From Halorussus litoreus (GTDB lineage: Archaea > Halobacteriota > Halobacteria > Halobacteriales > Haladaptataceae), in assembly GCF_003382685.1 (NCBI RefSeq), contig NZ_KZ859509.1, positions 1-64,000 of the forward strand: a stretch of 64,000 bases of DNA, written 5' to 3'. Below the pieces are notes generated by a model, which saw nothing but the letters and a program-made list of their open reading frames with translations, was not told the DNA's origin and ran no database searches. A program made the position numbers and the translations under genes. Below, piece after piece: positions 2,882-52,872 of this stretch. The stretch's first letter is position 1, and each line of letters begins with the position of its first letter.

Positions 2882-3502
2882 ATGGACGACGACGCGCCGG
2901 AGAACGCCTCGGACTCGATTCGGTATCAGGGAAAGGCGGTCGACGACGACGAGGAGATCGTCGCGTTCCTCGACGCTCAGCGGTCGGGCGTCCTCGGGTT
3001 GGCGGACGACGGGCAGCCCCACCTCGTCACGCAGCTGTTCGTCTACGACGACGAGGACGGCGCGATATACCTCCACGGCGCGCAGGCGGGCCGCGCGTAC
3101 GGCATCGTCGCGGACGGTGGTAGTGTGGACGGCGAGAGCGCTGGCGGTGACAATGATGACAGGGCCACAGTAGAGGCCTGCTTCACCACAAGCGAGATGG
3201 GCCGATTCATCCCCGCGGACGAACCCGTCAACTTCACCGTCGAGTACACCAGCGTCGTCGCCTATGGCGAGATCGGGCTGGTCGAGGACGCGGCGGCCAA
3301 GCGAGGCGTCCTCGAACGGTTCATGGCGAAGTTCGCGCCCCATTTGAGCGCGGGCCAGGACTACGAAGAGATGGCCGAGGAGTCCATCGACCGGACCGCG
3401 GTGTACCGACTCGACGTGGAGCGGTGGTCGGGCAAGCACGGCGAGAAAGCACCCGAGTACCCCGGCGCGTACGACCTCGACGAGGTTGCCGAGTCGGAGT
3501 GA
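2882..3502 (+). CDS. Pyridoxamine 5'-phosphate oxidase family (FMN-binding split barrel) protein
   Basis: 206 residues. The stretch IVAFLDAQRSGVLGLADDGQPHLV followed by LFVYDDEDGAIYLHGAQAGR is the characteristic first half of the split-barrel flavin-binding fold used by general stress proteins and PNPOx-like reductases. VNFTVEYTSVVAYGEIGLVED and the C-terminal Y-R-L-D-V-E-R-WSGK end also fit this family. An ATG nine bases upstream (2873) is an alternative start. A short acidic, Gly/Ser-rich loop around residues 80-95 (GGSVDGESAGGDNDD) is a haloarchaeal-style insertion. Substrate and cofactor cannot be assigned; heme- or F420-binding relatives exist. Confidence 0.85.
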   Translation: MDDDAPENASDSIRYQGKAVDDDEEIVAFLDAQRSGVLGLADDGQPHLVTQLFVYDDEDGAIYLHGAQAGRAYGIVADGGSVDGESAGGDNDDRATVEACFTTSEMGRFIPADEPVNFTVEYTSVVAYGEIGLVEDAAAKRGVLERFMAKFAPHLSAGQDYEEMAEESIDRTAVYRLDVERWSGKHGEKAPEYPGAYDLDEVAESE

Positions 3503-51961: not shown

Positions 51962-52050
51962 ATGCGGACTTATTCGTGTAGGTAGTATCTCCACCCGACT
52001 TTGCGTGGTTATCTACGCAAACTTTATGCAACATCGCATACTATCTGTAC

Positions 52051-52149
52051 ATGTCCGGTGGCAAGGAAGACGATGATCCCTCAGTGAAGGGGTATGAGAC
52101 TTCCAGAGCCACCCGCTTGACGGTTCGGAAGACGATGATCCCTCAGTGA
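52051..52149 (+). CDS. Possible small leaderless ORF running through the 41-nt repeats
   Basis: ATG 52051 to TGA 52149 encodes 32 residues beginning MSGGKEDDDPSVKGYETSRA. A TTTATGC box at 52023-52029 lies about 25 bp upstream, right for a leaderless transcript. The frame passes through the first 41-nt repeat and closes inside the second, because the 62-nt spacing is not a multiple of three. Either an unrelated RNA is made here, or a small gene was broken by the repeat. Uncertain. Confidence 0.3.
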   Translation: MSGGKEDDDPSVKGYETSRATRLTVRKTMIPQ

Positions 52150-52167
52150 AGGGGTATGAGACTTCCA
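52065..52167. repeat. Two identical 41-nt direct repeats with 21-nt spacer
   Basis: GGAAGACGATGATCCCTCAG followed by TGAAGGGGTATGAGACTTCCA occurs at 52065-52105 and 52127-52167, identical in all 41 positions. The flanks on both sides differ, so this is not a simple tandem duplication. Each repeat has GGAAG/CTTCC at its ends and CCCT/AGGG inside, so it can fold into a stem. The 3' part GGTATGAGAC resembles ends of CRISPR repeats, but the spacer is shorter than CRISPR spacers and no cas gene is in the window. Confidence 0.8.
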
Positions 52168-52185
52168 ATGCCGTTGAGTGGCGTT

Positions 52186-52872
52186 TTACAAAAGACGATT
52201 ATCAATAAAGGTCGCGGCGTCTTCACACGAGGAGTCTTTCGTGTAACTCCGCCACGAATACGCGACTAAATCTGCAATTTGGATGCCCGGAGTTCGACTG
52301 CTGTCTCTTGTTTCCACGTTGATTTCTGTTCCTTGTAGCTCTGCGAGTAAATCACAAACCTCGTTTGCAGGTGTTCGCCAGACATCAGCATCTGGAACAA
52401 GATGAATCTCGTTTATTTGGTCTAAGTCAACGAGATCACCATCTGTGAGGGGACTTAGAATTCTGGCCAGAGATAGTCGCTGAAGAACGTGGGGAACATC
52501 TGCCTCGGCCATATAATCAGCTAAAACCTGTTTCCCTAACTCTGGGTTGAAGCTATGATGAGAACATTGAAATGGAGTATCCTGCCTCCACGGATACGGT
52601 GGGTCGGCGATTGTTCCGTCTTTGTATGTAGCTCCCTCGAAAGTCTTGAGAAAGGACCCGAGGCGGTCTTTTGGTAACTGACTTCCTTTTAGTTCGTCTA
52701 CATGGCCAATATCACGTATGTCCGAGATATGTCTTGACAGTTCTTCACGAGCGTTATCGAAGATATACTGGGGAGAATTATTCGACAGACACCAACAACC
52801 GGCAACCGTGTAGTATTCTCCTCGGGCGTGCTGACCACTCTCATCTACGAAAATATAGAGGTCCTCAGCCAT
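52186..52872 (-). CDS. DUF3800 family protein
   Basis: 228 residues. LYIFVDESGQHARGEYYTVAGCWC at the start and TPGIQIADLVAYSWRSY near the end are the DUF3800 hallmarks: an acidic DES near the first strand and a late IAD. The family has an RNase H-like fold, is of unknown function, and is frequently found in mobile or defence-rich regions. The gene is clearly less GC-rich than its neighbours and uses A/T-ending codons, signs of recent transfer. It is flanked on its 3' side by the two-copy 41-nt repeat, 18 bp away. No partner gene is attached. Confidence 0.85.
   Translation of the reverse strand: MAEDLYIFVDESGQHARGEYYTVAGCWCLSNNSPQYIFDNAREELSRHISDIRDIGHVDELKGSQLPKDRLGSFLKTFEGATYKDGTIADPPYPWRQDTPFQCSHHSFNPELGKQVLADYMAEADVPHVLQRLSLARILSPLTDGDLVDLDQINEIHLVPDADVWRTPANEVCDLLAELQGTEINVETRDSSRTPGIQIADLVAYSWRSYTKDSSCEDAATFIDNRLL

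Follow-up and report, generated by a model that had tools for sequence, protein, structure and literature searches.

Structured RNAs that adjoin DUF3800 genes are already represented in Rfam, under the names DUF3800-I (RF02969), DUF3800-VI (RF02915) and DUF3800-IX (RF02968) in the available part of PMC11701678. In the accessible sections of PMC10910872, DUF3800 is assigned the RNase H fold, its active site being rearranged, and is linked to putative non-coding RNAs. Our literature search turned up no published function for the RNAs beside DUF3800 genes, no account of a haloarchaeal DUF3800 RNA and no description of DUF3800 as a toxin under RNA control. The Rfam motifs are said to originate from Weinberg et al. 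2017.

RNAs that neutralise a toxin provide a second point of comparison. The classical type III arrangement, according to the available part of PMC12373285, places the RNA within the operon, upstream of the toxin. The same part describes AbiF/RCd22 of Clostridioides difficile, with RNA motifs of 33 and 35 nt at a spacing of 19 nt, which binds and neutralises its toxin. In the available portion of PMC3475682, phage TE is described as escaping ToxIN by means of RNA mimics of ToxI.

The locus presented here lies in the window, the 64,000-nt stretch of Halorussus litoreus contig NZ_KZ859509.1 that was analysed. As with the Rfam DUF3800 RNAs in the accessible sections of PMC10910872, a DUF3800 gene has a structured and conserved RNA as its direct neighbour here. 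However, when 25 haloarchaeal loci were scanned against Rfam, no family matched the hairpins, and the DUF3800 families were absent from the matches at E ≤ 5 (5 loci) or E ≤ 2 (20 loci). Further, the haloarchaeal RNA is 3′ of the DUF3800 gene and convergent with it, whereas the one bacterial match (DUF3800-VI in Paraburkholderia, below the gathering score) is 5′ and on the same strand. Two tandem hairpin motifs beside a toxin gene (here a putative one) are shared with AbiF/RCd22, as far as the available part of its source goes, but the protein families are unrelated and the AbiF RNA precedes its gene; AbiF is the nearest worked example for an antitoxin reading. The likeness to ToxIN, going by the available text on that system, is that ToxI RNA repeats neutralise the toxin and a phage carries an RNA-only pseudo-ToxI, and that RNA-only viral copies are found here. 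Operon order and RNA fold are different, and the toxicity of DUF3800 is putative. In place of RNA repeats upstream in a toxin operon, the RNA here is downstream and convergent, so that the locus departs from type III systems in its order and, judging from the modelled protein, probably in fold.

Two tandem hairpins beside a DUF3800 gene

The features of the locus are as follows.

52016-52028, plus strand: promoter-like element of the RNA gene, with an A-rich BRE-like stretch and the TATA-like TTTATG at 52023-52028, at an A+T peak
52057-52113, plus strand: hairpin 1, with outer stem 52057-52062/52108-52113, inner stem, internal loop and apical stem; holds repeat copy 1 (52065-52105); from fold and covariation
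52114-52180, plus strand: hairpin 2, with outer stem 52114-52124/52170-52180; holds repeat copy 2 (52127-52167); from fold
52184-52187, plus strand: TTTT directly 3′ of hairpin 2 and partly within the DUF3800 stop codon; the RNA possibly ends here, with a presumed terminator role
52186-52872, minus strand: DUF3800 protein, 228 aa, convergent with the RNA gene; PF12686; RNase HII-like predicted fold

The sequence-only reading had pointed to two identical 41-nt repeats with inverted ends (GGAAG/CTTCC) and an inner CCCT/AGGG stem, in an AT-rich islet beside a DUF3800 gene, and each of these features is there. The copies start 62 nt apart and leave a gap of 21 nt; extending the pair gives a 46-nt match at 96% identity. 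G+C content is 47% in the DUF3800 gene and 50.5% in 52000-52185, against 66% for the window, and the gene itself matches PF12686 at E = 2.4e-10 (41.8 bits, over a curated cut-off of 21).

The region 52055-52185 folds into two successive long hairpins at -56.2 kcal/mol, and none of 200 shuffled sequences was as low (mean -39.4, sd 3.7). Each hairpin is built of an outer stem, an inner stem (GGAAG/CTTCC in the window), a symmetric internal loop and a CCCU/AGGG apical stem. The outer stems are unlike in sequence between the two copies, yet paired in both. The earlier reading, in which all DNA around the repeats differs, needs one correction: the repeated unit extends beyond 41 nt. A longer hairpin carries each 41-mer at its tip, and the flanks differ because they are mostly outer stems, which pair without sharing sequence. 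One small RNA gene accounts for both repeats: it has two hairpins in tandem, each with a 41-nt repeat as its conserved core.

This architecture bears on two other readings. Two identical repeats with inverted ends would suit a degenerate or minimal CRISPR array, a resemblance that had been noted earlier and that is not supported. Instead of several repeats with unique spacers there are one or two copies, often a single one, and no spacers; the short 21-nt gap belongs to paired outer stems, the linked gene is DUF3800, and the element occurs once in its genome. We give such an array practically no credence. Hardly any weight attaches either to a small protein gene of which the repeats would be part, with an ATG at 52051 opening a short frame through copy 1 and copy 2 lying in the frame of a short peptide. 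The 62-nt period breaks the frame between the copies and the stems covary instead, and this reading was rejected.

Conservation of the hairpin RNA

By DNA similarity, G001, G002 and G005 have two copies arranged as in the window, and G013 has one. The second copies of the first three genomes keep the core unchanged while their inner stems differ (GGCGG/CCGCC; GGTGG with CCATC; a shifted, weaker stem). The identity of the two copies in the window is therefore taken as core constraint plus a matching inner stem, for which gene conversion is perhaps the cause.

The pattern GATGATCCCT-N6-AGGGGTATGAG, with up to two mismatches, was found in 19 of 392 genomes of the order, and a backward control pattern in 0 of 392. 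Matches in G091, G233 and G275 gave no match to the covariance model described below, were taken as chance and were left out of the counts. A covariance model, R1, was built from 28 aligned hairpins, including both hairpins of the window, which as training-set members match it at 52045-52122 (E = 2.5e-23) and 52119-52184 (E = 4.6e-18). R1 matched 32 of the 392 genomes at E ≤ 0.01; among 392 genomes drawn from the phylum, five matched at E ≤ 0.001, all of the same order. The repeat, which the sequence-only reading had proposed to look for in other genomes, is thus present elsewhere.

Comparison of the hairpins indicates a conserved structure. In the 28 hairpins 88.1% of the cells are paired, changes on both sides occur in 15 of 20 pairs, and the internal loop is nearly invariant. 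The covariation score is 0.402 against 0.194 for shuffled alignments (0 of 500 as good), and it falls to 0.14 or less when the alignment is slid by one to three columns. Fourteen hairpins from outside the training set showed both-side changes in 12 of 18 pairs and a score of 0.493 versus 0.204, their alignment having been fitted to R1 and hence leaning towards the model. A viral copy (L148) has G-C where all 28 training hairpins have an invariant C-G.

Strand and boundaries of the RNA gene

Among the stem pairs on the plus strand, 69 are G-U (42 without one conserved U-G pair) and 17 are A-C. As A-C is G-U on the other strand, this excess assigns the RNA to the plus strand, on which it runs towards DUF3800. 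In 17 loci the A+T fraction upstream of the core peaks at 0.79, at positions -50 to -47. By eye, most loci have TTTAT- or TTTAA-like boxes behind an A-rich stretch (G135 and G163 are unclear). The A-rich stretch and the TTTATG box of the window resemble the BRE and TATA elements of archaeal promoters, and we read the upstream peak as promoter-like. T is mildly enriched (0.44) at +21 to +24 after the core in the same number of loci. Together, the promoter-like A/T peak and the G-U bias argue for the RNA being made, probably as a transcript of ~130-140 nt with its own promoter, running towards the convergent DUF3800 gene.

Alternatively, the hairpin could serve the two convergent genes on either side chiefly as a signal for termination or 3′ processing, or as an antisense regulator. 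Its place against or across the DUF3800 stop codon would suit such a role, as would the TTTT behind it in some loci. However, termination needs neither a nearly invariant core nor tandem copies; the G-U bias points to the strand opposite the DUF3800 mRNA, the RNA gene has its own promoter-like box, and orphan copies have no DUF3800 mRNA to terminate. We regard this alternative as quite unlikely.

A predicted RNase HII-like protein

The sequence-only reading had assigned DUF3800 to an RNase H-like family, and structure prediction gives the protein a fold like that of RNase HII. Its AlphaFold2 model (pLDDT 93.0, pTM 0.91) has RNase HII/H2 as its top fold matches (Foldseek E = 2.7e-5), and VIA-align places it on RNase HII with Z = 12.0 over 164 residues and an rmsd of 3.3. 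Identity is only 13%, and DUF3800 differs from RNase HII in the further invariant residues E60, K62, W165 and Q198 and in having a partner RNA gene. Argonaute rows appear in the same fold comparison at Z about 8. A check for the ToxN/AbiQ fold again gave RNase HII as the best matches, in a list where the omission of a family excludes nothing. A sequence search for solved structures gave no match, and PADLOC gave none.

Seven residues (D10, E11, E60, K62, D161, W165 and D201) do not vary across the 19 aligned DUF3800 proteins, so that putative catalytic residues appear to be kept. Given the RNase HII-like predicted fold and the invariant acidic residues, DUF3800 is likely to be a nuclease in which these acidic residues are putatively catalytic.

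Pairing of RNA and protein across genomes

In the window the RNA gene and the DUF3800 gene stand tail to tail, the hairpin abutting or overlapping the DUF3800 stop codon. The same holds wherever the hairpin RNA, hereafter class A, accompanies DUF3800: the gene is on the opposite strand and its stop codon is close behind the hairpin. A DUF3800 frame follows the hairpin in 14 of 20 loci, the exceptions being the G001 ahcY locus, G004, G007 and three chance matches. In the 392 haloarchaeal genomes R1 defines 31 loci at E ≤ 1e-4. Neighbouring copies were merged into a single locus, and two G391 loci, seemingly one duplicated region, were kept apart. Rows for G205:C18 (E = 2.5e-4) and for G103, G118, G127 and G201 (E of 0.0026 or more) were left out.

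Intact, convergent DUF3800, 17 loci: G000, G001 (second locus), G002, G005, G013, G122, G154, G163, G192, G203, G205, G250, G330, G336, G337, G362, G364 (contig 59)
Broken DUF3800, 3 loci: G135 (in-frame TAG), G185 and G375 (tblastn pieces split at different places)
No DUF3800, 11 loci: G001 (ahcY), G004, G007, G094, G188, G298, G354, G364 (contig 34), G384, two in G391

Genomes have one or two class A loci, with one or two copies per locus.

The linkage can also be seen from the protein. PF12686 gave 29 matches in 27 of the 392 genomes, and 26 of these genes have an RNA at their 3′ end (class A for 16, and for 10 a class B described below). The remaining three, in G251 and one copy each in G007 and G375, have neither; the G007 and G375 copies have other simple hairpins at the 3′ end. 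Simple hairpins of neither class are recorded downstream of the DUF3800 genes at L063 and L080. DUF3800 homologues elsewhere do have the repeat nearby, as the sequence-only reading had proposed to check: it lies no more than a few tens of nucleotides from the stop codon. As a test independent of the RNA, plasmids were searched by protein, which gave a DUF3800 frame on pKBTZ03_437 of Halobacterium salinarum KBTZ03 (L170:3001-3666), and just past its stop, on the opposite strand, R1 matches at E = 2.6e-24; the other plasmid, from Halanaeroarchaeum, was the G163 locus again. The L170 frame is apparently intact yet absent from the gene table of its record. A scan of named genomes yielded ten stretches, eight with DUF3800 in the fetched DNA.

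Divergence of RNA and protein is correlated over 14 loci (r = 0.617), but significance is lost once near relatives are removed (r = 0.205 over 11 loci, with 3663 of 20000 permutations as high). On the strength of the comparative linkage, RNA and DUF3800 almost certainly form one module. The pairing of a repeat RNA with an RNase-fold protein, advanced earlier as an attractive hypothesis, thus gains support from the copies in other genomes, the linkage to DUF3800 and the predicted RNase HII-like fold.

A second RNA class and a composite RNA

Ten DUF3800 genes of another branch have beside them a second, longer RNA, class B, in 10 of 10 aligned loci. Its shared blocks are GATAAnGCCG, GATGACC and GGTGGGAGGCC, the RNA ends at or near the DUF3800 stop codon, and the class B loci scanned gave no match in Rfam.

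Class B loci, 3′ flank of DUF3800: L060, L068, L069, L072, L074, L075, L077, L078, L079, L084

In the proteins of four of these loci (L074, L075, L077 and L079) the acidic residue of GDESG is replaced, giving GDVSG, and the RNA is still kept; these proteins are perhaps inactive or altered nucleases.

On a plasmid of Salinibaculum sp. KK48 (L137:3160-3380) a class A hairpin (R1 E = 4.2e-22) occupies the position of the class B variable arm, and a PF12686 search of this genome gave no match. Such a graft of a class A hairpin in a class B scaffold is a sign that the two RNA classes may do the same job. By eye, the composite RNA is just upstream of a tRNA-like sequence.

RNA without an intact DUF3800 gene

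Comparison also turned up loci where the RNA stands with a broken partner or alone. It is kept beside a broken DUF3800 gene in G185, G375, G135 and Halovenus salina. In the last of these an insertion, whose 393-aa frame we take for a transposase, interrupts the DUF3800 gene ahead of its final motif, and the RNA is intact. Two virus contigs from IMG/VR carry the hairpin: L135 (34,980 bp, with a terminase match) at 2950-3027 (R1 E = 1.8e-19) and L148 (106,233 bp, with a clamp-loader match) at 790-867 (E = 1.3e-15). PF12686 gave no match in either record, and both contigs may be fragments; a search by alignment for a viral DUF3800 found none. Viral pattern matches inside a predicted coding frame and without an R1 match (L146, L147) were left out, as was L149 (R1 E = 2.3e-4), where the core is incomplete.

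In the genus of the window, G001, G004 and G007 have the RNA after ahcY without DUF3800, while in G016, G003 and G006 ahcY is closely followed by a hydrolase gene with no RNA between. At the ahcY 3′ end of 17 genomes of the genus, the RNA is present in six (G000, G001, G002, G004, G005, G007) and 10 have no core; an R1 search of the G017 ahcY locus gave nothing better than E = 0.056. A link to ahcY or to SAH sensing was rejected: outside this genus, none of the loci read has the RNA behind ahcY. Some orphan RNAs (L122, L125) look decayed, so not all are kept by selection.

In G391 two orphan hairpins (L118 and L119, at about 630 kb and 702 kb of C1) lie 72 kb apart among the same neighbouring frames, apparently a duplicated region and possibly a mobile one. 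This duplication, the integrase frame near the hairpin in G188, the patchy spread, the presence on plasmids and the RNase H-like fold could all suit a mobile element, of which the hairpin would be the DNA site and DUF3800 the recombinase, like REP hairpins with transposases. We think this very unlikely: a locus holds one or two copies and a genome 1-2 class A loci, the G-U bias and the promoter-like box point elsewhere, and RNA and protein are not multiplied together.

The same loci bear on the role of the RNA. Instead of inhibiting DUF3800, it might be a cofactor without which no active ribonucleoprotein forms, serving as scaffold, activator or guide. A scaffold that binds protein would suit the tight linkage and the near-constancy of the internal loop; some RNA-guided enzymes have RNase H folds, among them Argonaute, whose rows appeared in the fold comparison; and PMC10910872, in its accessible sections, suggests that TPR-DUF3800 may act in interference or crRNA metabolism. 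However, no variable, unpaired, guide-like segment was found in the aligned hairpins, and the RNA persists with DUF3800 broken or absent and occurs alone in viruses, which would be odd for a pure cofactor. On balance we hold the cofactor reading to be rather unlikely.

A possible RNA antitoxin

The RNA stands beside a putative nuclease, outlives the loss of that nuclease and is carried by viruses on its own, as would suit an RNA antitoxin. The locus would then be a module of RNA antitoxin and nuclease, type III-like in logic. We hold this to be the likeliest of the readings, at about even odds. The RNA, once transcribed, would bind the RNase HII-like DUF3800 protein and restrain its putative nuclease activity. 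If the RNA were lost, for example when a virus shuts down host transcription, the nuclease would be freed, with a toxic and possibly antiviral effect. Where viruses, plasmids and some chromosomes carry the RNA alone, it would serve as a decoy or be a leftover.

Several points count against the antitoxin reading or weaken its support. The RNA is downstream and convergent, unlike the classical type III order. The asymmetry between surviving RNAs and broken genes could reflect target size, a gene of 690 nt being hit more often than an RNA of 70 nt. RNA and protein distances do not correlate significantly without close relatives. Some orphan RNAs look decayed, three DUF3800 genes have neither RNA class, and PADLOC gave no match. 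A fuller version, which we put forward tentatively and lean against, is an archaeal immune module in which tandem hairpins silence a nuclease, viruses and plasmids carry RNA decoys, and at least two scaffolds serve the two DUF3800 branches, with the Salinibaculum graft joining them.

The haloarchaeal set comprises two clean RNA classes, intact RNAs with the protein broken or gone, and virus-borne RNA-only copies, and this combination makes the antitoxin and decoy hypothesis directly testable. An archaeal laboratory model, Haloferax volcanii, is at hand, and PF12686 was found in 1 of 15 genomes of its genus. To our knowledge, an RNase HII-like fold is not known for type III systems. If true, the antitoxin reading would extend RNA-antitoxin immunity to the archaea, and would do so with an RNase HII-like fold.
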